A stretch of 42,613 nt of DNA, taken from positions 1 to 42,613 of the IMG/VR virus record IMGVR_UViG_3300033145_001808. One strand, given 5' to 3'. Position 1 is the first letter of the stretch. Each line of letters begins with the position of its first letter. This DNA comes from a virus. Positions 450 to 19,741 of the stretch are shown piece by piece. The position numbers and the translations under genes are program-made. Below the pieces are notes generated by a model that saw only the letters and a list, made by a program, of their open reading frames with translations, searched no databases and had not been told where the DNA came from.

Positions 450-689
450 TTAATTATCCCTGCTACAGGATGAGCTATTTCTCTTTTTGTAAGTTATAGG
501 CTGTTTTAACCAAGGATATCTTTTCTTAATTTTATTTATAGCTTGAGTTTTGCGATTGAATCTCTCAACATCTGGAAGAATAACTTCTTCTTCTATGAAT
601 TGCAGTATGTCCCTTAAAGCATTCACTATTTCTATGTTTACCATTTTTATAAGTTCCTGAAGTTCAACGCCTGCACCATCATTACTCAC
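450..689 (-). CDS. Small hypothetical protein after the endolysin
   Basis: A 79-residue product is expected from a GTG start at 689, which overlaps the endolysin stop and has AGGA six bases upstream. A TTG 30 bases earlier leaves the frame open further but has no ribosome binding site. The protein is predicted mostly helical in its first half (ELQELIKMVNIEIVN, LRDILQFIEEEV) and lysine-rich later (INKIKKRYPWLKQP). It has no membrane segment and no recognised family. Its position after the lysis enzyme suggests an accessory lysis role or the start of another module; this is inference only. Confidence 0.6.
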   Translation of the reverse strand: MSNDGAGVELQELIKMVNIEIVNALRDILQFIEEEVILPDVERFNRKTQAINKIKKRYPWLKQPITYKKRNSSSCSRDN

Positions 690-1143
690 TTTTAGTCCTA
701 TAAAATTTGTGATTGCCAATTTGCTTTATAAATTCCATACTTTTAGCCCAATGGGGTTCAATATCTGCCCTACAATAGTGAGTTGCACCATTAGTGGGAT
801 CTTCAGCATCATTATTTAATACCAACTTTGCTGCCTCAAAACACTCTTGCCATCTGTTAAAACTATCCCAGAGGAGAGGATTCCTCATTTTATTGCGATT
901 AGCATCACCAGCATTAAAAGCTGAGAATTGTTTATATTTAAGAATAACTTCTCGGTAGTTATTTCCATACCACTTGGCTCTGTTGACCCGATTTTGGATT
1001 ACCCAACCTATAGCTAGTTTTCCCAAAAATGGCTCTCCCCGGCCCTCTCCCCATATGCAAGTAGCTACAAGTAGGATTACTGGCCACTTGAAAAAGAGAA
1101 ATGGAACAGCCACGGGAGTGGGGATATATATAATCTTATCCAT
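682..1143 (-). CDS. SleB-type cell wall hydrolase (endolysin)
   Basis: The 153-residue protein matches the Hydrolase_2 (SleB/CwlJ) family, which cleaves peptidoglycan. Residues 30-55 carry the family motif IWGEGRGEP...AIGWVIQNRV with the probable catalytic Glu33. The family's C-terminal signature is present as DPTNGATHY, then PHWAKSMEF and IGNHKFYR. A hydrophobic stretch at residues 8-30 (VAVPFLFFKWPVILLVATCI) could be a signal anchor or a signal-arrest-release helix, so export without a classical holin is possible. It follows a holin candidate and is the probable lysis enzyme. A usable AAAGG motif precedes the ATG. Confidence 0.88.
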   Translation of the reverse strand: MDKIIYIPTPVAVPFLFFKWPVILLVATCIWGEGRGEPFLGKLAIGWVIQNRVNRAKWYGNNYREVILKYKQFSAFNAGDANRNKMRNPLLWDSFNRWQECFEAAKLVLNNDAEDPTNGATHYCRADIEPHWAKSMEFIKQIGNHKFYRTKSE

Positions 1144-2423: not shown

Positions 2424-2918
2424 TCACCCTCCTTTTAGGCTTTTTAGATAGTGTCTCGATAGCTCAAAAGCCGGGGGAGAGAATTTCTCCATTTCTTTTA
2501 GCTTCTGAGCCAGCCTTTTGATGATGTTTATTGACTCTGTCAATGAAAGAGTCCCTCTGACCACGTTGTCGATGGATATCACTGTGCTAGTAATATCGGG
2601 ACGCTTGCCGTAAACTTTATTCCAGTTAAAGGCTAGGAGTCCAAACTCTATTCCCAGATCCTTCAGTATGGGTTTCATCGGCTGATTGATAGTAATAGAT
2701 AAAAGCATATTCAGAGCTTCTTTGACAGTAGACTTCTCTTTTCCTGTTGCCTCTTTATCGAACTTTTCTGAAGTTAATTGTTTTTTCATTAACTCAAAAG
2801 CACATTTTATTACATTTTGTCCATCTTTCGATAGAATCGTGTTAAGGTCTTGGTGTCCTAAGATATACTCCAATTTCTTTGTGTTCCTCTCAAAAGCCTT
2901 TTTATCTTCTTCTTTCAT
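2424..2918 (-). CDS. Hypothetical helical protein after the radical SAM genes
   Basis: 164 residues, soluble and helical by eye, with no recognised domain. The charged N-terminus (KKAFERNTKKLEYILGHQD) and the segment TESINIIKRLAQKLKEMEKF suggest coiled-coil or partner binding. The ATG overlaps the stop of the SPASM-type radical SAM gene (ATGA) and has GGAG upstream, so the two are translationally coupled. It may be a partner of the radical SAM module or of the following membrane protein. Confidence 0.7.
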   Translation of the reverse strand: MKEEDKKAFERNTKKLEYILGHQDLNTILSKDGQNVIKCAFELMKKQLTSEKFDKEATGKEKSTVKEALNMLLSITINQPMKPILKDLGIEFGLLAFNWNKVYGKRPDITSTVISIDNVVRGTLSLTESINIIKRLAQKLKEMEKFSPPAFELSRHYLKSLKGG

Positions 2919-4234
2919 TTCAACTCCTTCTCTACAAGTCTTAAAGAGGCTTGTTTATTTGGATTAAGTCTGTCAAAAATTGTCTCATAAACCCCTAACT
3001 TTTTATATACTTTTATCATTGATGCTATTTTAGCGTGTTCTAATTTACACACTGTAGGTATGGGACTAAATAAATCCCCCGTAATCTCATACATACTTCC
3101 CAGGCATTGTCCCTGACAAAGATACTTAATCATACAAACCTCACATTGAGGCTGAGTCTTAAAATCAAAGGCTATCTCTCCAATAGCTAATTCAGGATTT
3201 TTTGCCTCTATACCTACAATCTTATCATCTTTAACTACAAATTTTCCTAAAATAAACTGGCTGTAAGATTGCCTATGGCAAGGGACAATTGCTAGATCAC
3301 CTAATCTTACATAAAGACAGGATTGGAGAGAGCAGCCCAAACCCCTGCCGATTGAAGTTAGGCAGTTACTAAGAATATTGTAACCTCTACGCCTGAACAA
3401 AAAATCAAGATAATTACCAACGACTCCTTTACACGGGACTTCGAAAGTCCACTTAATGAGAAACTTTATAAAGTCCATATAATCTCGTATTTGCTTATCT
3501 GTCCACTCCACATTGCGGACTTCAAGAAGATAAATATTGCTAAATGGTATATCAAACTCTGTGAATTTACTCTGAAACCACAAAAAGTTATCAGTCCACT
3601 TTTCGATAAGATCGGAATATACCATCGGATGAAAGCCAAAGCGGTACCTTCTGTTGAATCTAAAGCACTTATCATAGTATTTATCGTCCCTTCTTTCCTT
3701 GGCTTTCTTGAAAGGTCTATTCGCCTCGCAGAATTTACCATCAAAGGAAGCTGAGAGTAAAATGGGGATACCTACATTTCTCGAGTCCCTCAAGAGTTGC
3801 TCTACTTTTTCCGTCAGCCTGTCGCTGAGAATGAACGTGTAGTTAGTCGGAATGAGAATATTCTTAGGCTTCCTCTCGGTATTAGAGAACTTGTCTAATA
3901 TCAGTTTCAAGGCATCAAAACCCACTTTTTGAGAGAAAGGCTCACCAGAGAAGAAGTCTATATCTGGTGCATATCCCTTTACAATAAGCCAGTCCAAAAG
4001 CATCTCCAAATTATGGAGAATATCTTTGGGCCTGCTTATTTTTCTCGAATAGAGTTCCTCGCCAAACCTAGCTATATAACAGTATTTACAATTGAGATTG
4101 CAACGTGAATTGAGAATGAATTCTATCCTTCTGAAATTCTCATAACGTTTATCATCTTTGTTTGTCCAACCCTTGAAAAAAGTGTGTTCTAAAAAAGAAT
4201 TAAACAAAGCATTATTTTCTTGTTGATGATTCAT
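2915..4234 (-). CDS. Radical SAM protein with SPASM-like C-terminal cysteine cluster
   Basis: The start is ATG 4234, with GGAGAG upstream; longer readings lack a site and overlap the previous gene. In the 439-residue product Cys45, Cys49 and Cys52 (CNLNCKYC) form the CxxxCxxC motif that binds the radical SAM 4Fe-4S cluster. FFSGEP follows as the usual GGEP-like SAM-binding motif, then LSASFDGKF. The C-terminus is cysteine-rich: CSLQSC, a single Cys before HRQ, then CEVCMIKYLCQGQC, as in SPASM auxiliary-cluster domains of peptide-modifying enzymes (anSME, PqqE, sactisynthases). It overlaps a second radical SAM gene and lies two genes after tetrapeptide-repeat proteins, which are its probable substrates. 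Confidence 0.9.
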   Translation of the reverse strand: MNHQQENNALFNSFLEHTFFKGWTNKDDKRYENFRRIEFILNSRCNLNCKYCYIARFGEELYSRKISRPKDILHNLEMLLDWLIVKGYAPDIDFFSGEPFSQKVGFDALKLILDKFSNTERKPKNILIPTNYTFILSDRLTEKVEQLLRDSRNVGIPILLSASFDGKFCEANRPFKKAKERRDDKYYDKCFRFNRRYRFGFHPMVYSDLIEKWTDNFLWFQSKFTEFDIPFSNIYLLEVRNVEWTDKQIRDYMDFIKFLIKWTFEVPCKGVVGNYLDFLFRRRGYNILSNCLTSIGRGLGCSLQSCLYVRLGDLAIVPCHRQSYSQFILGKFVVKDDKIVGIEAKNPELAIGEIAFDFKTQPQCEVCMIKYLCQGQCLGSMYEITGDLFSPIPTVCKLEHAKIASMIKVYKKLGVYETIFDRLNPNKQASLRLVEKELK

Positions 4235-5546
4235 CTTCTCTCCGCCGCAAAAGTTCTTCAAAAGCACCATTGCTGAATAATCGTAGAAGTGACACTGGTG
4301 TAAAGTGAATACATCCAATATTAAGTAAATTTTCTGCGGGACAAGAGAGAGCAGTATTAACGAATACCGCAAATAGAGTTGCCAGTTTCTCATCCAGATA
4401 GCACTTAGAAGCCTGTCCTGCTAAGACCAACTCTTTAAGCATTGCCACAACATAGCTTATTTTTAATCGCCAGAAGTCGTGGTAATTTCGCATTACATAA
4501 AAGAATCTTGTCTTCTCTTTTTCATCAGAAGTATCCACGATGAATCTATCTTTAATAAAATTAATTCTATCTCTTTGAAACAAGGAGACATCCCAGTTAT
4601 CTATGCCTTCCTGGGACAAGATGCTCTCGATATATTCAGGGTGATTGAAAAAGAAAGAGCGGTGGCAAATATGTATATCGCCTTTAATCCCAGCTCCTAA
4701 GTTGCTGTCTCCTCCTGAGCAGGTGAACATTGAAGACTTAGAAGATAAATCATTCTGATACTTAAACAGTCTGTCTAACCTAAACGAATAAGTATTAGGA
4801 TATTTCATTTCTCTTAGCTTCTTAAAAAACCCAGTAAGTTCTTTCCCGTCTTCGCTAGAGTATTTTCCTGGCACGCATAGGCTCGGAGCACAGGAATTAA
4901 CAAATTTTATTTTTTTATTTTTATTTAGACGCTTGAATTCTTCTTCTATATCATCGAAATAATCAAAATATTCTTTTATCCTTTTAGGCTCAAAATTAAG
5001 AAGTCTGATATTACTCATTGTTAGTGTGGATTTCATACGAAATTCTATCTCTACACAATCCAGTTCTAATTTATTTAAGCTCTTTATAATGTCGAAAAAG
5101 TTAGTGGGTATCCTCTTTGCTGCACCTTTTACCCTATTTACATCAGTAATGAAAGCTGGCCCATCTAGGGAGATTTGAGGCTTGAACTTAATTTTTCTAT
5201 TCCCTAACAGCGTCTCCAACCTTGCTACGAACTCAACAATTATTCGGGGGTTAGTCATCAAATTCGTAGAGAAAGAGATCTCCTTCAATTTTGGGAATCT
5301 GCCCAGCAAGTCAAAGAGCGGAATTTTATCTAAAGTTAATATAGGTTCAGTTCCCCAAAGCCCAAAGTATTCCAAATTCTTGCCATAAATCTTTTCCAAA
5401 TCATCAAGCCAGAATTTATTTTCTAACTTCTTTACAATTTCTTTCTGCAGGAATTTCATCAAAGAGGTCTTAGGAATGTAACAATATTTACATTTCAGAT
5501 TGCAACTCGCCGATGAAAATTGTTCCGCTGCTGTTAATCTATTCAT
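4212..5546 (-). CDS. Radical SAM protein (first of a tandem pair)
   Basis: 444 residues. The cluster motif CNLKCKYC lies almost at the N-terminus (Cys15, Cys19, Cys22). GLWGTEP at 62-68 takes the place of the GGEP motif, and ISLDGP at 125-130 is another typical radical SAM strand. Further cysteines occur in CAPSLC and in a CSGGDSN...HICHRSFF segment near residues 290-315, which could hold an auxiliary cluster. It is too diverged from its neighbour to be a recent duplicate. The ATG lies in a threefold AATAGATG/T tandem repeat with no clear ribosome binding site, 12 bases after the repeat-protein stop, so translational coupling is likely. Confidence 0.88.
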   Translation of the reverse strand: MNRLTAAEQFSSASCNLKCKYCYIPKTSLMKFLQKEIVKKLENKFWLDDLEKIYGKNLEYFGLWGTEPILTLDKIPLFDLLGRFPKLKEISFSTNLMTNPRIIVEFVARLETLLGNRKIKFKPQISLDGPAFITDVNRVKGAAKRIPTNFFDIIKSLNKLELDCVEIEFRMKSTLTMSNIRLLNFEPKRIKEYFDYFDDIEEEFKRLNKNKKIKFVNSCAPSLCVPGKYSSEDGKELTGFFKKLREMKYPNTYSFRLDRLFKYQNDLSSKSSMFTCSGGDSNLGAGIKGDIHICHRSFFFNHPEYIESILSQEGIDNWDVSLFQRDRINFIKDRFIVDTSDEKEKTRFFYVMRNYHDFWRLKISYVVAMLKELVLAGQASKCYLDEKLATLFAVFVNTALSCPAENLLNIGCIHFTPVSLLRLFSNGAFEELLRRREDESSTRK

Positions 5547-5557
5547 CTATTCATCTA

Positions 5558-5920
5558 TTAAACTGGAGCTTTGGCATCAGCATAGTGTGTGTATAAGACC
5601 CCACTATTATGGTTAGTGTTATCATCAAGATAATAAACCGAATTGACCCCTTCATCATGATCCGTGCGATCTGTTGACTTATAGCCAGTATCTACTCCTG
5701 TATTAACATCATTATTATAGGATGAATGCTGGTCATTATAGTGGGTTGCATTATATCCATCATCAACAACGGTATTCTGAGCAGCATTGTAAGAAACTTT
5801 GTCAGCTCCGCAGGCTTCATCATCTTTGATAGAATCGAGATTGCTTCTTATTTCTTCTATTACTGCTTTCGTAATAAATGCTGCTCCTTTCTGTATATCC
5901 TCTGTCCATTCAAACGACAT
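5558..5920 (-). CDS. Tetrapeptide-repeat protein A, candidate radical SAM substrate
   Basis: 120 residues. Residues 1-34 form a leader-like module starting MSFEWT and containing IEEIRSNLDSI. From residue 42 to 117 the sequence reads in 19 consecutive tetrads, for example TGVD, TGYK, STDR, TDHD. Positions 1-2 are mostly small or polar, position 3 is Y (5), V (5) or H (4), and position 4 is N (8), D (3) or K/R (3). A YTHY tetrad lies near the end. It shares both leader and repeat pattern with the next gene and sits directly before two radical SAM genes. I infer a modified fibre-like or RiPP-like substrate. GGGAG precedes the ATG. Confidence 0.8.
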   Translation of the reverse strand: MSFEWTEDIQKGAAFITKAVIEEIRSNLDSIKDDEACGADKVSYNAAQNTVVDDGYNATHYNDQHSSYNNDVNTGVDTGYKSTDRTDHDEGVNSVYYLDDNTNHNSGVLYTHYADAKAPV

Positions 5921-5937
5921 TTTCGCTCCCTATTTCA

Positions 5938-6405
5938 CTAATTTCCCACATAGTGAGTGTACCAGTAAGTTCCATAATAATCATTTTGAACACCTGTATT
6001 GACTGGCCCACAAGCCGAACCCTTATGAGCTGAATCCACACTAGAATTATGTGTTGATTTCACATCTGAATCATAATTGCTATCTACTCCAGCCTTATAG
6101 CCTGAATCATAGCCTGTATTTTGTCCTGTATAAACAGATGCATCTGCATCAGCATTATCTGCTCCGTCATGGTCCGTGTTGTGAGAGTGGCAGTAGTTCA
6201 TGTCGTCTGCATAATCAATCTTAGTCCTTATATCCTGATAGTCTGCAGTTTCTTCAAGGTCTTCTACATTGACTGGAAGTTCCGTCCAAGAGGGAGGATC
6301 CAATGCAAGATCAGAATATACAGTTTCGACATTGGTCTGAATCTCATCTATGATGTCATCAAGCGTTATATCTCCGACTATAATGGATGTCCAACTAAAA
6401 CCCAT
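5938..6405 (-). CDS. Tetrapeptide-repeat protein B, paralogue of A
   Basis: 155 residues. Two successive WT-type modules (MGFSWT...IIDEIQTNVETV, then SWTELP...YQDIRTKIDY) resemble the N-terminal module of protein A and short modules seen in phage fibre proteins. Residues 77-152 are 19 tetrads such as TGYD, SGYK, AGVD, SNYD, ending YTHY then VGN. Position 3 is Y (5), V (6) or H (4); position 4 is D (6), N (4) or K (3). One tetrad carries a Cys (GSAC) and one a Trp (GTYW). It lies between the fibre gene and protein A with an AGGTGA site, so it is probably made with the tail genes. Confidence 0.8.
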   Translation of the reverse strand: MGFSWTSIIVGDITLDDIIDEIQTNVETVYSDLALDPPSWTELPVNVEDLEETADYQDIRTKIDYADDMNYCHSHNTDHDGADNADADASVYTGQNTGYDSGYKAGVDSNYDSDVKSTHNSSVDSAHKGSACGPVNTGVQNDYYGTYWYTHYVGN

Positions 6406-6411
6406 ATTTTC

Positions 6412-7497
6412 TCACCTAATCGTAATAAGAGCTTCAATCCTCTTTTTTTCGCCTGGCAAAAGATTCTCAAAAGCCTTGGCTACAGTCGCCTCCAAAGGAT
6501 TACCTCTCATCGCTGTCCCTTTAAAATTGCTCGTCATCATCAAATCACCTACTGAAACTGGCCCCACAGCTTTGACTTTCACCCTGCCCGCAATTGCCAC
6601 GGGGGTAAAGCCTGCCTCAATGGCTTCCTCAATAGATTTATAGTTATCTCCTCCTAGACAGAATCCAAAAGTATCCGAGTGAACTCCTATTACTCTCTTA
6701 TCGTTTGCAAATGAGGATCTCTTCACCTTCCCTTCATCCCAAATTAGTACATCTCCAGGCTGCGTTTTTTCCGAGCAAGGCGTAAGTTCGGCAAGGTCAT
6801 TATAGACTGCTCTCCAGACCTTAGCATTGTCATCAATAATCGTGTAAGTATTGTCATCGGCAGCTATCTTCTTGACTAGCTTGCCCTTGGCCGTCTGGAT
6901 TTCCCCCGAGAGAACTGGAGCATCTGTGTGGCCTTCGGCTATTGCGGTAAAGTTAGCCTGGTTGGCATTCATTTTCTCGGAGGTCAAAAGTGAATTCTCA
7001 GCGTAACTCAGGGCAGTCCAGGTTGCCCTCACGAACTTAGGGCCCAATTCCTTAGCCAGAGCAAGATAACAATTCGGACAAACGACAGGCATAGTTCCTG
7101 CTCCCAGAGTCGAGAGTGAGGGCAAGTTAATCCAGCCAGGATAACCGACCCCGAATATTTTTTCTTTTTGGGAAACTCCACATCGGGTGCATCTAACTAC
7201 TCTGGGCTCCTTCACGGTAATTTTTTTGCCGATTCTAGTTAAACATTTGGGACAAACTTCAGGAGCTTTTCCTTGAAGATCAAAAGCCAGAGGCAAAATG
7301 GCCCAGCCAAAGAAGGCTACCCCTGAGGACTCCTCGACTTTATGCTTCCCGCAAAATGCACAGTCCACAGATCTTTTGGGCTTAATATATTTGCCTTTCT
7401 CTTTCACCAAGTTCCAGACTGGCTTGCCGCCCTTAAGGCAAAACTTAACTCCTCTTTCCTCCCATTTCTCTACAATTAATCTCTCAATTACAGTCAT
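6412..7497 (-). CDS. Tail fibre protein with zinc ribbons and G2-type C-terminal domain
   Basis: 361 residues. The N-terminal half has four CxxC pairs (CAFC, CPKC, CTRC, CPNC), forming two probable zinc ribbons at about residues 46-90 and 105-150. WTALSYAENSLLTSEKMNANQ at about 178-198 is a short module common in phage fibre proteins. The C-terminus (GDVLIWDEG, RVIGVHSDTFG, VAIAGRVKVKAVG, VGDLMMTSNFKGTAMRG) resembles the peptidase G2-like or intramolecular-chaperone domain at the end of fibres and spikes. It probably contributes to host recognition. A strong TTAGGAG site precedes ATG 7497. Zinc ribbons in a fibre are unusual. Confidence 0.7.
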   Translation of the reverse strand: MTVIERLIVEKWEERGVKFCLKGGKPVWNLVKEKGKYIKPKRSVDCAFCGKHKVEESSGVAFFGWAILPLAFDLQGKAPEVCPKCLTRIGKKITVKEPRVVRCTRCGVSQKEKIFGVGYPGWINLPSLSTLGAGTMPVVCPNCYLALAKELGPKFVRATWTALSYAENSLLTSEKMNANQANFTAIAEGHTDAPVLSGEIQTAKGKLVKKIAADDNTYTIIDDNAKVWRAVYNDLAELTPCSEKTQPGDVLIWDEGKVKRSSFANDKRVIGVHSDTFGFCLGGDNYKSIEEAIEAGFTPVAIAGRVKVKAVGPVSVGDLMMTSNFKGTAMRGNPLEATVAKAFENLLPGEKKRIEALITIR

Positions 7498-7734: not shown

Positions 7735-10107
7735 CTACAAAATTGGATTATAATCTTGGTCTAAAATTCCCCAATAAGGGTCATCCAAAACAAACGCCGC
7801 AATCTGCTCGTCGCTAATATCCCTGCAAACAAAGCAAACCAAACCCTGGGCTATATCAATATTCTGAATATCTATAATCCTGGCATAGACAGCCCCCCAA
7901 TCCTTCAAAGCCTCCTCGACTAGAATCGTGTCTCCTAAACTCAGGAAAATACCACATAAAGTTGAGGTTATGGTCAATAGAGTTAGGGGTTGCTTGTTTT
8001 TGTCGACTGTCCTGTCGGCATACTCCGTCGCACTGTCAAGGTCTGCGTGCCAAACGGTTTTGTCCTCCTCTACGTCGGAAAAGGTCCCGAAGTCCGTTTT
8101 ACTGGCTTCATCCTCCGCCAGATAACTACCCGCCCATTCATCAATATCAGGATTATATCCGTATCTACATCGAAAATGGTTAATCAGATTTTCCTTGGTT
8201 ATTGAGGCGTCTATCTCCAGACAATTGCTTCTGTTATACCTCGGCAAAATGCCAGGGGTGAAGGGAGGAATAGGTCTTTTAAACTTAAATTTCCCCTCTC
8301 CCCCAATCCAGATGTAGCTGTTCGTTAGATTAGCAATCATCAAAAGAGCGTTAGTAATATAGTGACCAGTGAATCTTGCCTGCAGGGAATATTTCAATGT
8401 ATCGCAATCAGTCTTATAGCTATTCCAGCTTGTATAATCAATGTCTGTGTTATCTGTGCTTGCCGTATCATCCAGCCCGCCGTGAGTCGTGAGGAGATCC
8501 CAGGCCAGGTCTGCGGGATTCTGCGGCGTTAAATACTCAACAGGATTCTCACCATTGCCGAGCTTTTTCTTCAGGGTGCTTACCATTTTATCTCGGACTT
8601 TTAGGATAGCTTCTGCCTCGGCATAGGAGACATCTTCAACTTTGCCTGTGAATAGTGCTTTTTCGTTGCTAACACCGTGCTCAGCAGCAAGCTTTATTCC
8701 AATTTGAGAGATATTGCCAATCTCCGTTCTGTCAGCCAAAAATAGATTCCAAATCTGGCTGATGTTAGAAAGAGTGGCAGTACCCGCTCCTGAGGTTAAA
8801 TCAGCCGACCTTGTTATAGTAGACACATCATTTAAGTAGCTGGTATAATCTACGCCTTTATATTTCAGCCAGATAGTAGCTTTCACAAGCTGTTTGGAAA
8901 GCCTTGCCTCGAATGAAGCATCATCGAGGAGCATATCAGTCACATCTTCCAATAGCCCCAAGGATTCCTCTAAAGTCAAAGCTCTATCAAGGGTAGGGAG
9001 GGACTCTAATAAGCCTAAAGACTCAGTAAGAAGAGCGCTAATAGCGACTGTCTCATCTTCTTTTAAGGCTAGGCTTTCCTCTAAGACTAAGCCTCTATCT
9101 AGGCTAGGCAGGCTTTCCAGTAGGGCTAAATTTTCTTCTAAAGGTTCTAGGGCTCTAGTTAAACTAGGCAGACTTTCCAGCAAGCCTAGAGATTCTGTCA
9201 AAGCTACAGCAGAATCGGCAAACATATTGTCTATATAAAAGGTATTATCACTGTCGGCATTGACGATAGTGACAATAATCCTATCAATTGCGTCCTTATT
9301 AGTAGTAGCTATTCCTGATAGCTCTACTACCTGCCAAGCATTTGCCGATGTGATGTTAGGAGTGACTTCCGATGTCACCCCGCCTGAATCCCTGAAACCG
9401 ATTTTGATATTACTCCCTGTTCGGGAAGCTCTTATGTAAAATCTAATAAAAGGTTGCCCTGTTAAATCTATAGTCGGTGAGACTGTGCGAGTGAGGGTGT
9501 CGTTGAGGGAATCAGTTGCTTTGGCAAACCCTTTTAGGGAATAAGAGCCTTGTTGTTTGATAGTGGATTCGGAGTAGCATTGAAGGTTAATTTCCATCAT
9601 CTCCATTTCAGTAATAACAACCTTTTGTGCAGTGTCATCAGGAGTGGAGTGCGTTACATATATTCTATAGTAACGATAAGCCGTAGAGTTTGAAAATGTA
9701 AAAGATTTTATTTCATCATTAGGACTCCAAGAAATACCCGATTGTGTATCTAAAACATCCCAATCGATATCATTATTTGAGCCCTCAAAAGTCCAAGCAG
9801 TAGGGTGATGGGTTGCTACATCTATGGCAGATTGAAACCTATATTTTGATACAATTTTCTCATTTCCGGCCCCTAAGTCATATTTCAGCCAGATAGGATT
9901 ATTGCCTGCCCATTCTCCCCGCCATCTATCATTTGGATTAACAGTATCCCAAACATCGTCGAAAGCCCCTGAAGCTGGCTCATTTTCCTGATTCGCTGAA
10001 GCTGTTCCGCCCGTGCATATATCACTTCCATAATCATCACTATTCACATAAGCCGCCTGAGCATCGGCATCCGTTGAATATTCACAGTAATCAAGTTCTA
10101 CTGGCAT
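7735..10107 (-). CDS. Baseplate/tail protein with carbohydrate-binding domains and a Leu-Glu repeat linker
   Basis: 790 residues in four parts. Residues about 50-180 look like a discoidin/CBM32-type sandwich (IWLKYDLGAG, WTFEGSNNDIDWDVLD, YRYYRIYV). Residues about 180-300 look like a second carbohydrate-binding sandwich (FIRFYIRAS, WQVVELSG, FYIDNMF). Residues about 305-395 are repeats of the type ESLGLLESLPSL. The remaining 390 residues resemble a tail hub or baseplate protein (ATIWLKYKGVDYTSYL, LFTGKVEDVSY, AEYADRTV-like segments). It would join tail tip to host glycans. The order, binding domains before hub domain, is uncommon. A clear AAGGAG site precedes ATG 10107. Confidence 0.75.
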   Translation of the reverse strand: MPVELDYCEYSTDADAQAAYVNSDDYGSDICTGGTASANQENEPASGAFDDVWDTVNPNDRWRGEWAGNNPIWLKYDLGAGNEKIVSKYRFQSAIDVATHHPTAWTFEGSNNDIDWDVLDTQSGISWSPNDEIKSFTFSNSTAYRYYRIYVTHSTPDDTAQKVVITEMEMMEINLQCYSESTIKQQGSYSLKGFAKATDSLNDTLTRTVSPTIDLTGQPFIRFYIRASRTGSNIKIGFRDSGGVTSEVTPNITSANAWQVVELSGIATTNKDAIDRIIVTIVNADSDNTFYIDNMFADSAVALTESLGLLESLPSLTRALEPLEENLALLESLPSLDRGLVLEESLALKEDETVAISALLTESLGLLESLPTLDRALTLEESLGLLEDVTDMLLDDASFEARLSKQLVKATIWLKYKGVDYTSYLNDVSTITRSADLTSGAGTATLSNISQIWNLFLADRTEIGNISQIGIKLAAEHGVSNEKALFTGKVEDVSYAEAEAILKVRDKMVSTLKKKLGNGENPVEYLTPQNPADLAWDLLTTHGGLDDTASTDNTDIDYTSWNSYKTDCDTLKYSLQARFTGHYITNALLMIANLTNSYIWIGGEGKFKFKRPIPPFTPGILPRYNRSNCLEIDASITKENLINHFRCRYGYNPDIDEWAGSYLAEDEASKTDFGTFSDVEEDKTVWHADLDSATEYADRTVDKNKQPLTLLTITSTLCGIFLSLGDTILVEEALKDWGAVYARIIDIQNIDIAQGLVCFVCRDISDEQIAAFVLDDPYWGILDQDYNPIL
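8940..9212 (-). repeat. In-frame repeats encoding ESLGLLESLPSL units
   Basis: Within the baseplate gene, near-identical DNA units of roughly 20 codons recur. They encode variants of ESLGLLESLPSL followed by a basic residue and RAL or RGL, then LEE. At least three full copies and two shorter ones are visible. The units would form an amphipathic helical linker between the glycan-binding domains and the hub. Copy number could change by recombination, altering linker length. Confidence 0.75.
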
Positions 10108-11256: not shown

Positions 11257-11619
11257 CTATTTCTCCCTCAAAATTAGTGTGCCGTAGTATTTATCCTGCC
11301 ATTCCATTGTCATCATCTGGAGGGGTTGAGTTTCGTTAATTATAACTACGGTAACGTAGCTGCTGGGATTATTTTCGTAATCGTAATAGTATTTAAGTTC
11401 CGTCATGTCCTGCCACCACTCATTAAACTGGTCGGCGTCGGTCTTTTCAATAGCTATAACAGGCACTTCATCCCGCCTTTTATTACCCCATTCATACACA
11501 TATAAAGAGCCATCGAGGGTTTTATGAGTAGTCCGCCTTCGGCTCTCTGGGACTTCGTATCCTTCTATGGGGTCGAAATCAACATCTGTCACCCCGTCAC
11601 TTAGCCGCATTTTAGCCAT
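11257..11619 (-). CDS. Small distal tail component
   Basis: 120 residues, beta-rich: MRLSDGVTDVDFDP, SLYVYEWGNKRRDEVPVIAIE, YYYDYENNPSSYVTVVIINE and a C-terminal YYGTLILREK. The position directly after the tape measure gene and the pattern of a tail-tube-related fold suggest a distal tail or tail-tip adaptor. The ATG overlaps the tape measure stop (TAATG), so translation is coupled. Confidence 0.65.
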   Translation of the reverse strand: MAKMRLSDGVTDVDFDPIEGYEVPESRRRTTHKTLDGSLYVYEWGNKRRDEVPVIAIEKTDADQFNEWWQDMTELKYYYDYENNPSSYVTVVIINETQPLQMMTMEWQDKYYGTLILREK

Positions 11620-14600
11620 TATTTCGCCTTCCTAACTCCCACAAGATCCCTGGAGAATATACCCATTCGCACTGATTCCTTGATGGCTGGGACAAATTTC
11701 TTCTGGAAGACCCTCTCTATTTTCTCTTGCGTTAGGGTTTCAAGGTCAACATTGGGGAATTCTGCTGTGATATTTATAGGACCAACATTCTGTTCTATTT
11801 TTGCCCCGCTTTCTCCTCGTCCCGCTCTCCATTCCCTCGCCTGAGAAGCAGTAAGAATTGCTTCTTTGGGGTGGACGATGACGGGCATGGTCCGGGGGAT
11901 GTAGGGGATGCCGATTTGGGCACGGGGGATGCTACCCTCTGTTCCATAACGTCCGATAATGTTAAAATAGCGGTTGCCTATGTCAGGGATGTTGGGCATA
12001 TGCAGGTTGCCGATTACGTCGAAGTCAACACGGCGAGGAATGTCCTCTATCGCTCTCTTGAGCGTATAGACTTCTGCTGTGAGATTCTCTGTTGCAGTTG
12101 ATGCTTGATTTGCCCACCAAAGCCAATCCCAAGGCCATTTCCACCCGCCTCCTAATTCATCTTTAACTTTCTTTACCGATTCATAGAACTCCTTGAAAGC
12201 TGGAATTATTTTTTCTGTTATTAATTCCCAAAGTCGCTTCATTGATTCCCAAGCTGCTAAGAAGGCAGCAATCAACAAGGCAATTTTGCCGAGGAGAACC
12301 ACTAGGGAAGTAGTTAAGCCTGCCACTGCTTTTGTAAGACTCTGAACAAATGTTATGATACCCGTGGCAATCCAAGCTAAAGTAGCTACTACAGCTTCCC
12401 AGATTTTGGCTATCAATTTTATTAGGGCAGGAATACCTTGTTCCCAGATTGCCTTTGCGAAACCTATAACCCATTCCGAGAGCTTCTGGGCTATAAGGTT
12501 GGCGATCGCAGCGGTGACGCTTTCGTTGATTACCCGGCCTAGCTCCTGGAATGCTTCTTTGGCGGTAATCGTCTTCTGGAGCCAGTCCTCGACCACTGAG
12601 GCAAAGCTGGATTTGAGAGACGAACAGAAGTCTTTCCAAGCAGTCTCTAATCTCTCAACTGCGTTTTCTCCAGCCTTTGCTAAACCTTCTAACTCTTCGA
12701 TAATAGCTTCAATTTGCTCTATAGTCAGATTTCCCCAGTCAATTGTTTGTTTTTTGTAGTCTTCATAGTATTTTTTTTGATCTTTTGTAAGAGAATCTAG
12801 GAGCTTCTTTCTTATTTTTTCCTCTTCGATAGCTGCCTTTTTATAATAGAGTACCTTAGCCGCTGCAATTCTTTTTGTGCTTGCTTTCTCTTCCTTTAAT
12901 AGAGCTTCTTGTTGTTTCCAACCTCTATCCAGTATTTGCTGTTTTGTATGGGTAGCATTGAACTCTATATCTTCTATCTCATTTTTGATTTTTTGTGTTA
13001 GCTTCTTTTCTTTATCCAAGGTCGCTTTAATAATTTCAAGCTCTTCTTTTTTCTTTTTCTTTCTATATGCAGTTTCCCAATCGGCAATTTGCTTGTTACT
13101 CCAGCCCGCTTTTTTATATGCTTTTTTCCTTGCCTCTATTTCTATCTCTAATAACTTAGTCTCATTTCCAAAAAGCGATGCCATTTCTTTCTGGTAATCA
13201 ACTTGAGCTTTTCCGATTTTATCATAGTAATCTTTGTAGAGATTGAATTTGGCTTTTGTAAGTATCTCAGTGAGATTTATTTCCTCACCAGCGAGCTTAG
13301 CCGTTGCTTCTATCCTAACTTTCTCGGCTTCCCAACGTTTATCCAGCTGCTCCTTCTCAGTATGAGTCAGCCTAAAGTACTCATTCTCGATTTTTTTAAT
13401 AGCCTCTTTGCTAGCTTCTACAACTCCCTCCCAGTATTCCTTGTATGCCTTTTTTAATTTCTCAACTTCTTCTTTAGTAAATTTTGTAAAATCTACAATT
13501 TGGCCTTCACGCTCTTCGTACCATTTTTTCTCTGCCTCTGTAAGTTCAAGATACGCACGTTTAGCAGGCTTAGTATCTACAGGAGGTATAATGGGAGGTA
13601 TGGGAGGTGGCTCAATCGGAGCTATGACCGGTGGCGGTATAACTGTCTCTGCCGCAGCAACTCCTATTGCCGTGAGCTTTTTCTCCAGAATTCCTTTGGC
13701 CTCATCCAGATTAACTCCTATAAGTTTTGGAATTTCTGTAACCGTGGCCTCAAATCCCTCAAGAAGGGGAGTCCAATCAGGAGCCTCAATCTCCTTCAGC
13801 CAGTTCTTGGGATTCAATTTCTTCCCAATATAAATAGCCCATTTCCCAATATTTCCCCCTAGGTTCTTGAGAATTCTACCAGCGGCACTAGCGACATCCC
13901 TAAAAACATTAGGAAACTCAACGCTGAACCAGCCGAGGAAGTTGCCAATATTCGCCCCAACCGCCTTAAAGACTCCTGCGACAACTTTTCCGAAGAACTC
14001 AAGATAAGCACCAGTTTTCTGAACACCCTTTCGGAATGTTTCGTTTTTTTTGTAGAAATATACGAACGCCACCGTAGCAGCTGCAATTGCTCCTGTAATC
14101 AGTCCAATGGGGCCTAACATAATATGAAAAGCTGCTCCTACTGCAGGCGCTATAGCAACTAAACCAGGTAAAATCATTAACAAACCACCCAGAGCTATCA
14201 AAAGGGGCCCAAGAACTGCCGCAAATTTGATTAATATTGAAGTGAGCTTGGGGTGCTCTTTTGACCACTCTGACATTGCCTTCACAATATCAGTAACTTT
14301 TTTAATCAGGGGAACTATCATTGGTAAAAGTCTATCGCCTATTTCCTGAGCTAAAACTTCTATTTGTATTTTTGCCTGTTGGAAAGCAAATCCAGCTTTA
14401 TTTATTCCTTCTGTTTGCTCCTTAAATGCTACATCAGTAAGACCTATTGAATCTCTCATTTTAGCAAGTTTTTCGGTATATACATCAGACTGTGCTCCAG
14501 TTAAAGCTAATGCTAATGTTTGACCTTCTATTTGGGAGATATATTTTTGTAATGGTATTCCTGATTTTTCAGCTGCTTCAGTAACAATCTTAAGTGCTCC

Positions 14601-15419
14601 GCTTAATCCCTTTTCTTTAAGCATAGCCTCTCCGCTCTTATACCCCATATCTGCTATAAGTTCAGCCATATCCTTAGTCGGGGCCATCAAAGATTGGAAT
14701 ATTCCTCTTAACTGTGTTGATACTTCAGCTGCTTTACCAGTAACTCCTGTCGCTGTTGCCATTACAGCAAATAATTCTTCCTCTTCCACTCCCAATTTGG
14801 CAGCTAATGGAATTGCTTTCCCAATACTTGCAGCGAGTTCGGGGAATGCAGTCTGTCCTAATGTAACTGTCTGAAAAGCGAGATCGCTGGCCTTTTTAAC
14901 AGCTTCTTTAGATGTATCACCGTATCCCTTTGTAACAGCAGATAAAAGGTTAATTGCCTCTGTGGTAGTTGCCACACCTGCTGTAGCTGCCTTAGCTGAC
15001 ATTTTAAGAATATCAACTGTGTCGGCAGTATCACCAAAAGCGGATATAACTTGATATGCGCCTTGGGCCAAGTCCGCCGTGTCCTTTCCAACCTCCACAG
15101 CCATCGTCCTGATTGCTCCTTTGAGCTCGTTTACCCGCTCGGTGCTACGTGGGATCAGGGTAGCTATATTGGCTATTTCCTTGTTAAAATCAATTGATGA
15201 CTTTATCGCTAGGCCCAATGCTGCCGTGATAGCTCCGCCAGCAGCAGCCATGCCTATACCTACTTTTCTGAAAGTGGGAGCTAAAGCCTGGAATTTAGCC
15301 TGCATCTTATTAACAGACTTTTCAGTTAGCACTCTAGCTGACTTCAATTCAGACTCGAACTTGGCCATTTTGGCATGAAGTTCAACATAGGCTTCGCCAA
15401 TTTTACTTCCCACTGCCAT
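11619..15419 (-). CDS. Tail tape measure protein (TP901 type)
   Basis: 1266 residues. The first 350 residues match the TP901 tape-measure core: SSIDFNKEIANIATLIPRST, TMAVEVGKDTADLAQGAYQV, AAKAATAGVATTTEAINLL and GVTGKAAEVSTQLRGIFQSL. Hydrophobic segments follow at about 395-455 (FAAVLGPLLIALGGLLMILP and further). A long lysine/glutamate-rich coiled coil lies at about 640-900, more hydrophobic segments at about 960-1060, and a small C-terminal domain ends the protein. By the usual rule of about 0.15 nm per residue the tail would be near 190 nm. A good GGAGAG site precedes ATG 15419. Confidence 0.95.
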   Translation of the reverse strand: MAVGSKIGEAYVELHAKMAKFESELKSARVLTEKSVNKMQAKFQALAPTFRKVGIGMAAAGGAITAALGLAIKSSIDFNKEIANIATLIPRSTERVNELKGAIRTMAVEVGKDTADLAQGAYQVISAFGDTADTVDILKMSAKAATAGVATTTEAINLLSAVTKGYGDTSKEAVKKASDLAFQTVTLGQTAFPELAASIGKAIPLAAKLGVEEEELFAVMATATGVTGKAAEVSTQLRGIFQSLMAPTKDMAELIADMGYKSGEAMLKEKGLSGALKIVTEAAEKSGIPLQKYISQIEGQTLALALTGAQSDVYTEKLAKMRDSIGLTDVAFKEQTEGINKAGFAFQQAKIQIEVLAQEIGDRLLPMIVPLIKKVTDIVKAMSEWSKEHPKLTSILIKFAAVLGPLLIALGGLLMILPGLVAIAPAVGAAFHIMLGPIGLITGAIAAATVAFVYFYKKNETFRKGVQKTGAYLEFFGKVVAGVFKAVGANIGNFLGWFSVEFPNVFRDVASAAGRILKNLGGNIGKWAIYIGKKLNPKNWLKEIEAPDWTPLLEGFEATVTEIPKLIGVNLDEAKGILEKKLTAIGVAAAETVIPPPVIAPIEPPPIPPIIPPVDTKPAKRAYLELTEAEKKWYEEREGQIVDFTKFTKEEVEKLKKAYKEYWEGVVEASKEAIKKIENEYFRLTHTEKEQLDKRWEAEKVRIEATAKLAGEEINLTEILTKAKFNLYKDYYDKIGKAQVDYQKEMASLFGNETKLLEIEIEARKKAYKKAGWSNKQIADWETAYRKKKKKEELEIIKATLDKEKKLTQKIKNEIEDIEFNATHTKQQILDRGWKQQEALLKEEKASTKRIAAAKVLYYKKAAIEEEKIRKKLLDSLTKDQKKYYEDYKKQTIDWGNLTIEQIEAIIEELEGLAKAGENAVERLETAWKDFCSSLKSSFASVVEDWLQKTITAKEAFQELGRVINESVTAAIANLIAQKLSEWVIGFAKAIWEQGIPALIKLIAKIWEAVVATLAWIATGIITFVQSLTKAVAGLTTSLVVLLGKIALLIAAFLAAWESMKRLWELITEKIIPAFKEFYESVKKVKDELGGGWKWPWDWLWWANQASTATENLTAEVYTLKRAIEDIPRRVDFDVIGNLHMPNIPDIGNRYFNIIGRYGTEGSIPRAQIGIPYIPRTMPVIVHPKEAILTASQAREWRAGRGESGAKIEQNVGPINITAEFPNVDLETLTQEKIERVFQKKFVPAIKESVRMGIFSRDLVGVRKAK

Positions 15420-17488: not shown

Positions 17489-18868
17489 TTATCCCTTCTG
17501 AAAAACTATCATTCCCGGAAATTTAGGAAAATCTATCCTATCCATTCCTAAGTAGTCAGAAAGCTCCTCCACCATTCGGCTAACTCCTGGATGACTCCTA
17601 TGATTAGTATCATGGAAAACAATCAATCCTTTGTTCTTAACATAGGGATAAAAATTGTTAAAATCATCCTTTACCGAAGGGTAATTATGATCTCCATCGA
17701 TAAAAAGAATATCAATTTTTTCTTTCCAGTCCTTAGCTAAATCCTGGGATTTTTTCTGGATAAATTCTAATTGGGGATGGATAAAATCTTGCCATCTCTT
17801 TAGGGGATCACAGCTTATCAATCTCCCCCTCGTTTTTTCTAGCCCATATAGAAACGCCTTACTGGAATTAAGCAGACCAGTTCCTATTTCCAGAACCAAT
17901 TGTGCATCTTGGGCGATGACAAGCCCTGCCAGCAAAGCCACGAACGGCTGCATGTCAGTAAAATTCATGTCGAATCTGCCGTCGCCAATCAAGATGTCCA
18001 TGTCTATTGGGGTCATTCTTCCCTTGTGAGCCTCCATTACTCTTTTCCGATAATTTATATTAGCCGGACATTTCCCCCAACCTTTCGCGTAGTATTCATC
18101 AATCAAAGAGAACTCTTCCTCATGATAATCCAACTTGTCGAAAAAGAGGGTGGAGACGCAATACATCTGCCATTTATTATCTAGTAAATTTACCCAGCCA
18201 CCTCGCATCCATCTTTTTCCCGTCGTGGGCATCTTATCGAGTAACTCCCTAAGGCAGTTCAAATTAAAACCGGCCAGGGCAGTGCTGTGCTTTATGAACA
18301 TCGGAAGGTCTTGACTAGTCCCTCTTATTATTCCGACCCTCGGATCATACGTGAACTCTTTTGCCATAATCAGGTTCCAGTCCTTGGGATAAAGAACATC
18401 ATTTTCGCAATTAAACACAAGCTCGGTCTCGGCCAGCGAGGCAAACCGCATAAGTGATTTCTTTGCGTTCCCGAATTGTTCCCTGATAATTAATTTCTTA
18501 GGATTCTCGTAATTATCCAGAATCATTCTGGTCTCATCATCTGAATTGTCATCCATCACGAACAGTTTCCTCACTAGTCCCCAATCGGTGTTAATCTCAA
18601 GCGAATCTAAAGATTTCTTAGTCCATTCAGGCCTATTCCACACCTGAAAGCAGATATCATGTTTGGGAATTTGTCTCAGCCTTACTTGCCTGTCTATCCA
18701 TCTTGAGCACTGGATGGAGTTCCAATTCAAGGGGAAACATGTCAATAGAAATTCTGCTGTTTCCCTGTCTACTTTCCATTGTGATTTTTTTCTGGTATCA
18801 ATTCCAAAGCCGAAATAATATTCCAGCTCCGGGGTGGGATAAAAGCTGACTTCAATTTGTCTTGGCAA
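17489..18868 (-). CDS. Glycosyltransferase-methyltransferase fusion
   Basis: 459 residues. Residues about 1-46 are a small module (YYFGFGIDTRKK, ETAEFLL) also present at the C-terminus of the neighbouring glycosyltransferase. Residues about 65-300 look like a family 2 glycosyltransferase (ICFQVWNRPEWTKKSLDSL, LFVMDDNSDDET). Residues about 310-459 are a SAM-dependent methyltransferase of the Methyltransf_24 type (LVLEIGTGLLNSSKAFLYGL, DILFIDGDHNY, GLIVFHDTNHR). It may decorate virion proteins or host surface glycans. The start is TTG 18868 behind GGAGG. The pair interrupts the conserved neck-tail gene order. Confidence 0.8.
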   Translation of the reverse strand: MPRQIEVSFYPTPELEYYFGFGIDTRKKSQWKVDRETAEFLLTCFPLNWNSIQCSRWIDRQVRLRQIPKHDICFQVWNRPEWTKKSLDSLEINTDWGLVRKLFVMDDNSDDETRMILDNYENPKKLIIREQFGNAKKSLMRFASLAETELVFNCENDVLYPKDWNLIMAKEFTYDPRVGIIRGTSQDLPMFIKHSTALAGFNLNCLRELLDKMPTTGKRWMRGGWVNLLDNKWQMYCVSTLFFDKLDYHEEEFSLIDEYYAKGWGKCPANINYRKRVMEAHKGRMTPIDMDILIGDGRFDMNFTDMQPFVALLAGLVIAQDAQLVLEIGTGLLNSSKAFLYGLEKTRGRLISCDPLKRWQDFIHPQLEFIQKKSQDLAKDWKEKIDILFIDGDHNYPSVKDDFNNFYPYVKNKGLIVFHDTNHRSHPGVSRMVEELSDYLGMDRIDFPKFPGMIVFQKG

Positions 18869-18880
18869 ATTTTCCTCCTT

Positions 18881-19741
18881 TCATCTGAAATACCATCCCC
18901 ACCAGTAGATCGGGAATGCCGATAATAAAAACTCAGCCGTTTCTTTTGGCACTATCCAGTGAAGTTTCTTCCTAGTGTCAATCCCGAAGCCGAAGTAGAA
19001 ATAAAGCTCATTGCTAGGAACAAAGCGAAGTGAAACTTTATCTGGCAATTCCAGCTTTTTTGGCATCATACTTGGCATTATGTCAGGAAAGTTCAAAAAT
19101 TGTCTCATAATAAACAGCTTTCTCCCGGAGTCTTTTGTCGTAAGCCCCTCCTGACCTATCTTATCTCTTTCCCCGACTTTACCAGGTCGGTTGTGTGTTA
19201 TTTTTGCCTTTTCGCTGTGGGCATATTTACCCCATCTCTTGCTCCTCGTGGTTAGCTCACAGTCGCACCAGTAGTGGATATATCCTGGGAAGAAGATATT
19301 ATCATTAAGATATCTGTTCACATATTCCCTAGATATCAAACCGTGAGCGGCGAGGTGATCACCAAATTCGTCCCGAAAACTCACTAATCCCATCCCGTCA
19401 GGGAACGATTCATTGAAGGTTGACACCGCCTCGGTCAGCCAGTTGCGACTGACCTCTACGTCATCAGCGAGGAAGACTATCAGGGGGGAATCGGTCTTGT
19501 GATAGCCCTTATTGATTTTGCCGACATACATCTCTCGTTTTTCCTTAACCAGAATCTTTACATTCTCGTCCTTAATAAAAGGTAGCTTTTTAACAACCTC
19601 GACAGATTTAGGGTCATCCCTATCAGTAATCACAATTACATCAAAATTAGTGTAAACCGTATTTTCAAAGAGCTTAGTTAAGCATTTCGCCAACTTTTTA
19701 TAGCGCTGGCGAGTGGGAATAAGCACACTTACTTTTTCCAT
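18881..19741 (-). CDS. Family 2 glycosyltransferase
   Basis: 286 residues. The N-terminus has the GT2 nucleotide-sugar fold: VSVLIPTRQRYKKLAKCLTK, FDVIVITDRDDP and LIVFLADDVEVSRNWL with a DDV metal-binding motif. The C-terminal 50 residues repeat the module at the start of the next gene (YFGFGIDTRKK...ETAEFLLSAFP). The two genes are 12 bases apart, which suggests they arose by duplication or splitting of a larger ancestor. The ATG overlaps the gp10-like stop (TAATG). Confidence 0.85.
   Translation of the reverse strand: MEKVSVLIPTRQRYKKLAKCLTKLFENTVYTNFDVIVITDRDDPKSVEVVKKLPFIKDENVKILVKEKREMYVGKINKGYHKTDSPLIVFLADDVEVSRNWLTEAVSTFNESFPDGMGLVSFRDEFGDHLAAHGLISREYVNRYLNDNIFFPGYIHYWCDCELTTRSKRWGKYAHSEKAKITHNRPGKVGERDKIGQEGLTTKDSGRKLFIMRQFLNFPDIMPSMMPKKLELPDKVSLRFVPSNELYFYFGFGIDTRKKLHWIVPKETAEFLLSAFPIYWWGWYFR

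Follow-up and report, generated by a model that had tools for sequence, protein, structure and literature searches.

The stretch of DNA analysed here, which we call the window, comprises the 42,613 nucleotides of the IMG/VR virus record IMGVR_UViG_3300033145_001808. It is a fragment of a tailed virus with genes for a terminase, a portal, a major head protein, a tape measure and a cell wall hydrolase, and from this gene set the host is probably a bacterium. Tightly packed between the tail and lysis genes lies a cassette that encodes, in order, two proteins built largely from four-residue units (array proteins B and A, the units being tetrads), two radical SAM enzymes (rSAM1 and rSAM2) and a helical protein. 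The features of the locus are as follows.

682..1143, minus strand: endolysin with a cell wall hydrolase domain (PF07486); lysis module, likely bacterial host
2424..2918, minus strand: conserved protein of about 165 aa, apparently helical, found after rSAM2 in most cassettes
2915..4234, minus strand: rSAM2, with CX3CX2C and SPASM-type Cys; start set by homology, overlapping the end of rSAM1
4212..5546, minus strand: rSAM1, 444 aa, with CX3CX2C and three extra invariant Cys
5558..5920, minus strand: array protein A, 120 aa; N-terminal domain and tetrad array (residues 37-120)
5561..5812, minus strand: tetrad array of A, 21 tetrads, zero phase slips
5938..6405, minus strand: array protein B, 155 aa; N-terminal domain and tetrad array (residues 64-155)
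5941..6216, minus strand: tetrad array of B, 23 tetrads, zero phase slips
6412..7497, minus strand: 361-aa protein directly upstream of B, with two zinc-ribbon-like CxxC pairs in its N-terminal part
7735..10107, minus strand: tail protein with an F5/8 type C domain, which places the cassette in the tail module
11619..15419, minus strand: tail tape-measure protein, given for context

The 361-aa protein has a relative in a like arrangement in two other viral loci, L001 (3939-4997) and L002. Judged by eye, its C-terminal part resembles the proteins that precede the arrays in L032, L034 and L036, with no family match. We regard it as a tail-appendage-like neighbour whose association with the cassette is putative. 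Farther away, the genes that separate the head and tail genes include one with a weak match to a glycosyltransferase (phrog_3692; 18884-19741) and one with a partial match to a DNA methyltransferase (17492-18868).

Each array protein begins with a short domain. In B it is a duplicated domain of the W..GD.I..EI..N type (about residues 1-63), and in A there is one W..EIR.N.D..C domain. The preliminary description of this locus had counted 38 tetrads in residues 42-117 of A and 77-152 of B, with Tyr, Val or His at position 3 in 29 of them, Asn, Asp, Lys or Arg at position 4 in 27, and TDHD and YTHY in both proteins; our recount agrees in every figure. Tetrads do fill those residues, but the arrays are longer, running from about residue 37 of A and residue 64 of B to the C-termini.

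The periodicity of the two arrays is strong. The autocorrelation of residue classes peaks at lag 4 (z = +8.9 for B and +4.0 for A) and its multiple 8, with negative z at lags 3, 5, 7 and 9. We also trained a four-position profile on homologues, leaving out the window's own clade. With a single phase imposed on the whole array, B scores +64.0 bits and A scores +55.9 bits. No other phase exceeds −114 bits, and the top score among 2000 shuffles is −55 bits for B and −30 bits for A. No convincing family for either protein was found in Pfam, PHROGs or NCBIfam, a search of solved structures with the B sequence returned a chance match only, and conservation was too low for alignment searches with array proteins as queries.

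Our results also show that the frame is a property of the whole family. We fitted a phase model with five states (four cyclic and one background) to 37 array proteins from 23 viral loci. Over 5,779 array residues the frame is kept with 35 phase slips; 20 of the 37 arrays, including both in the window, have none, and arrays without a break extend to some 65 tetrads or more. To keep the test from being circular, we masked one residue type at a time and then called the phase. Even so, Ser and Thr fall on positions 1-2 in 1179 of 1196 cases and Gly in 454 of 467, while His falls on positions 3-4 in 260 of 274 and Cys on position 4 in 60 of 64. Ser, Thr and Gly are thus near-invariant features of positions 1-2 and all but missing from positions 3-4. 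The family consensus is [S/T/G/A]-[G/T/S]-[Y/H/D/V/E]-[D/N/Y], so that the rule is small-small-large-large and not aromatic plus amide.

Where does the frame reside? A DNA tandem repeat would be the simplest source of the period, and we rejected it: Tandem Repeats Finder reports no 12-bp array in either gene and synonymous codons are mixed. Since, in addition, 932 of the 1392 tetrads in the family are distinct (the commonest being SGYN, SGYD and SGVD), the frame must be held at the protein level. A strict four-residue phase would be hard to defend if homologues did not share it or if indels ignored it. Neither is the case, since homologues keep the phase by autocorrelation, phase model and masked-letter test alike, and indels in close relatives are in frame. 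In the better-aligned pairs (window/L018, window/L001, L001/L002 and L026/L049) array indels measure 4, 4, 4, 4, 12, 12, 16, 16, 28 and 36 residues. Divergent pairs are noisier, and when all array gaps are pooled 20 of 46 are divisible by four, with 15, 5 and 6 leaving remainders of 1, 2 and 3. We also considered an eight-residue superperiod in which aromatic and non-aromatic tetrads alternate. A first estimate gave z = −7, but with whole tetrads permuted and near-duplicates removed the effect is at most weak (553 alternations against 514 ± 15 expected).

The two enzymes carry an intact radical SAM motif, C15/C19/C22 in rSAM1 and C98/C102/C105 in rSAM2, which is invariant in 22 of 22 members of each family (rSAM2 residues are numbered on the 492-aa open frame, which extends to 4393). 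The CX3CX2C motif lies in a radical SAM domain in both, and we therefore assign both to the radical SAM superfamily, although the Pfam Radical_SAM model scores them at 26.4 and 25.2 bits (9e-6 and 2e-5), just below the gathering threshold of 29.5. In rSAM2 the Cys residues of the SPASM pattern are all present and invariant (C354, C372, C417-X2-C420-X5-C426-X3-C430 and C449). The SPASM model TIGR04085 matches 18 of 22 rSAM2 members and gives the window enzyme 25.7 bits against a cut-off of 27. rSAM1 lacks the seven-Cys SPASM pattern; only C276, C294 and C402 are extra and invariant.

All members of both families match peptide-maturase models weakly, with the PapB ranthipeptide maturase (NF047865) on top, yet for none of the maturase models listed do the window enzymes come near the curated cut-off: for PapB, rSAM2 reaches 46.2 and rSAM1 40.6 bits against 340. 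The HxsB model, which 13 of 22 rSAM2 members match weakly, gives the window rSAM2 18.6 bits against 370. We found no curated family for rSAM1. The nearest solved sequences to both enzymes are 5wgg, which we take to be the SCIFF maturase CteB, and other radical SAM proteins. No model of an RRE appeared among the listed matches; the N-terminal domain of the array proteins is conserved and is nearly absent in the second array protein of locus L023.

The helical protein, for which Pfam, PHROGs and NCBIfam likewise gave no convincing family, completes a cassette that recurs across viruses. With B as the query we found seven viral contigs, six of them readable past the array genes, and in all six radical SAM genes adjoin the arrays. 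In five of the six, B is followed by an A-like array gene, rSAM1, rSAM2 and the helical protein, about 165 aa long, whose gene is truncated by the contig end in L002. In the sixth, L006, the arrays adjoin a different radical SAM lineage, and the seventh contig, L005, stops after A. A search with rSAM2 yielded 65 loci, and hidden Markov models of both enzymes place the pair in 29 non-redundant viral loci, the window included. The two genes adjoin in nearly all of these and lie apart in L029. Tetrad arrays were called in 20 of the 29 and recognized by reading in L041; in L034 and L036 the array is weak or absent nearby. A divergent radical SAM lineage (L051-L053) is likewise accompanied by tetrad arrays. 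On a single contig in L053 (2818-10237), four tetrad-array proteins flank two radical SAM genes of a different lineage.

These numbers have to be read with the way the loci were collected. Most were retrieved through radical SAM homology, the exceptions being the search with B and a DNA pattern, and arrays without radical SAM genes were little sampled. Scans for a DNA pattern of YDSG tetrads gave one chance match and otherwise none. All viral contigs are metagenomic. Among 50,697 annotated phage records four further queries gave no match to the cassette, and the rSAM2 query found only distant radical SAM genes, in Campylobacter phages and in one gut-phage record. The Campylobacter phage genes are related in their radical SAM domain, but arrays do not adjoin them and we rejected them as relatives of the cassette.

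In the cassettes the repeat period changes together with the enzymes. The period is five in L039 and L040 and weakly three in L046, while L042 and L050 have Phe-rich segments, the latter a three-residue F-G-N/D run. In the rSAM2 tree a branch with support 100/99 parts the period-4 cassettes from those with period five, period three or Phe-rich arrays; L045 groups with the non-period-4 cassettes, and L034 and L036 with the period-4 ones. The divergences of rSAM1 and rSAM2 are closely correlated (mirror-tree r = 0.91). Array period thus appears to follow the radical SAM clade, though only a few independent changes underlie the link. The statement that four is an unusual period was only partly right. 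Our sister cassettes have periods of five or three, and the TVGG repeats of a cellular system, the tetrapeptides of a mycobacteriophage protein and the targets of a 'CXXX-repeat' family (all discussed below) also come in fours.

A and B had been proposed as candidate substrates of the two enzymes. This proposal gains from the conserved pair in most of the 29 loci, from the adjacency in six of six loci found with B, from the joint divergence of the enzymes and from the match between period and clade. We think that the co-encoded pair repeatedly modifies the arrays of tail-associated fibres, and we put the probability of this at about 60%. The account is strongest in the conserved adjacency, the period-clade match and the extreme register of the arrays. 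It is weakest in that the modification is predicted from sequence and that there is no one reactive residue in every unit.

How might such a system work? B and A would be two low-complexity fibre proteins, each with an N-terminal anchoring domain and a strictly framed small-small-large-large array. rSAM1, with its three extra Cys, and rSAM2, of the SPASM type, would modify the arrays, perhaps with help from the conserved helical protein. Moving along an array or visiting it repeatedly, the enzymes would change the large residues that occupy positions 3-4 (Tyr, His, Val, Asp, Asn); owing to the fixed frame, each unit would meet them in register. The virion tail would then bear a fibre that is stiffened or chemically distinct, and the sequence of this fibre could vary freely within the frame. 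As is usual for RiPP precursors, the gene of a possible modifying enzyme adjoins that of the putative substrate. A place on the virion tail is suggested by gene position and by locus L023, where 67 tetrads are fused to a tail-fibre-like region of SESL-type repeats. The second array protein of L023 has almost no N-terminal domain and starts nearly with the array, and its locus keeps the adjacent enzyme pair. From this fusion and the near-leaderless array we infer that the product is probably carried by the virion and that an essential leader is doubtful.

One could also argue that the arrays are unmodified structural repeats, that the frame serves the fold (a narrow beta-helical or extended fibre) and that the enzymes act elsewhere, for example on the Cys-bearing conserved N-terminal domain or on a host target. 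This is the alternative that survives best, and we consider it unlikely. The rule of the arrays concerns residue size and not one reactive residue, and the N-terminal domain offers near-invariant W, E, R, D and C. Mycobacteriophage Tweety gp54 shows that phages can carry such proteins without reported radical SAM genes: it has dozens of four-residue units whose copy number varies between relatives (PMC2884959). Those units are nearly constant, have two invariant Ala and are encoded by a 12-bp DNA repeat, and radical SAM genes are not described for them (PMC2884959). The arrays of the cassette, in contrast, are not a DNA repeat and adjoin an enzyme pair. If the arrays were unmodified, it would be surprising that both period and residue alphabet change with the radical SAM clade and that a second, divergent enzyme lineage is also accompanied by tetrad arrays. 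An action on the N-terminal domain sits badly with the second array protein of L023, which has almost none of this domain while its locus keeps the adjacent pair.

Suppose instead that the arrays are modified as the preliminary description imagined, with the aromatic residue, His or Val at position 3 cross-linked at every step to its neighbour or to another residue of the same or next tetrad. Many SPASM radical SAM enzymes form cyclophanes or thioethers, and this general background speaks for such a link. A weak coupling does so as well: when position 3 is aromatic, Ser is more frequent two residues later (41% against 31%) and Asn at the following residue (24% against 18%). Among homologous tetrads, however, Tyr, Val or His occupies position 3 in 54% and Asn, Asp, Lys or Arg position 4 in 59%. 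The preliminary description paired an aromatic, beta-branched or imidazole residue with an amide, acid or amine in each successive tetrad, and this does not extend to the family, where both classes occur together in only 32% of tetrads, against 50% in the window. An aromatic or imidazole residue is found at position 3 in 43% of tetrads (His alone in 16%) and anywhere in positions 3-4 in only 59%. These frequencies and so weak a coupling between positions do not imply a single type of cross-link repeated in each tetrad, and we think it rather improbable, even though TvgB is known to act on the Val of repeats (PMC9062424).

A chemistry without cross-links seems to us improbable to the same degree. 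The enzymes might introduce D-residues, add methyl or hydroxyl groups or oxidize Ser and Thr, and so impose an unusual backbone geometry. Radical SAM epimerases and other non-cross-linking peptide radical SAM enzymes exist, and Ser or Thr at positions 1-2 is the most constant feature of the arrays. The best-matched models, however, are cross-link-forming maturases (PapB, SCIFF, YhhB), albeit far below their cut-offs. Both chemistries are special cases of the arrays as substrates, and hence the probabilities that we attach to the readings partly overlap. Finally, although small precursor-like genes beside radical SAM genes are the usual layout of a RiPP, it is very unlikely that the array proteins are viral cargo from which secreted bioactive peptides are released, given arrays of up to about 65 tetrads, the tail-fibre-like fusion in L023, the place of the window cassette between tail and lysis genes, and no protease, exporter or immunity genes seen in the cassette (nor proteases or exporters beside the arrays in the other cassettes read).

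For repeated modification of the arrays by the pair, the closest functional precedent is TvgB. In the TVG system of Halomonas anticariensis, TvgB makes cyclopropylglycine from the Val of each TVGG of TvgA, each conversion removing 2 Da (PMC9062424). As in the cassette, a repeated four-residue unit lies beside a radical SAM enzyme, which here modifies TVGG again and again. The TVG units are near-identical, however, and the system is cellular, with one radical SAM enzyme, a dioxygenase and transporters, whereas the cassette has variable residues in a fixed frame, two radical SAM enzymes and a place in a viral tail module. A repeated TVGG precursor is not what we see among the commonest tetrads, and TvgB was compared by description only.

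The other known systems each share some traits with the cassette. The His-Xaa-Ser (Hxs) system also has two radical SAM genes (HxsB and HxsC) beside a Ser-carrying short-repeat protein, whereas the cassette has no array of His-Xaa-Ser tripeptides, has an extra helical protein and is viral. The PapB-type ranthipeptide and SCIFF maturases (CteB, 5wgg) provide the best-scoring models and structures for rSAM2 and have the SPASM Cys in common with it, but they depend on Cys for their chemistry, and the arrays of the cassette contain little of it; the 46 bits reached are also far from 340. The CXXX-repeat target radical SAM family (TIGR04115) has, by its name, a target period of four, and 10 of 22 rSAM1 members match it weakly; the window rSAM1 is below the cut-off, and the anchor residue of the arrays is not Cys.

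If the arrays are modified, these viruses carry proteins finished by radical chemistry. Substrates of such length, locked in one frame and offering dozens of equivalent sites, would be useful for the study of processive radical SAM enzymes and for making stiff protein fibres. They would also point to a viral route for varying a surface protein while its scaffold stays the same. Taken further, the cassette could define a new class of viral tail fibres, with a fixed four-residue frame and units covalently remodelled by a viral radical SAM pair, in viruses of bacteria and archaea; we hold this wider claim only tentatively, at somewhat less than even odds. If it is true, the units are perhaps remodelled one after another, and the sequence could diversify at no cost to backbone register and rigidity. 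We found no described family that covers the system, in a literature search that was thin on subscription journals, so that a prior description is possible. The cassette is widespread in uncultured viruses, yet was not found in the 50,697 annotated phage records, and hence there has been little chance to study it.

Strong cellular matches, among those listed, were few and come from metagenome-assembled genomes of Nanohalarchaeota, Thermoplasmata, Clostridium and Peptococcaceae. The Thermoplasmata genome (L085) has three cassettes, and it is the only one of 292 genomes of its phylum that matches. In the Nanohalarchaeota genome (L084, contig JALIDQ010000018.1), the open reading frames next to the cassette read as archaeal rpsL (S12) and RNA polymerase A'', which suggests a provirus integrated in an archaeon. 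The Clostridium genome (G003:C329; L086, L130) carries three copies of rSAM2 on one contig of 174,861 bp, one of them in a cassette with a Phe-rich array (NFSGHNTTNFSGHN).

Some of the viruses among the 29 loci with the enzyme pair seem to use altered genetic codes. In-frame stops within otherwise intact rSAM2 genes suggest that TAG is read as a residue in L032, L045, L046, L047 and L050, and TGA in L038.

Further viral radical SAM loci contain Cys-rich short-repeat proteins, with sequences such as CTCNCNYACTCN and CTGTCTGSC (L063, 2638-3857; L055, 4552-4971; L066, 6224-7273; L077, 3971-4588; L068, 1649-1939). Possibly, these are a parallel, Cys-based form of the same array idea.
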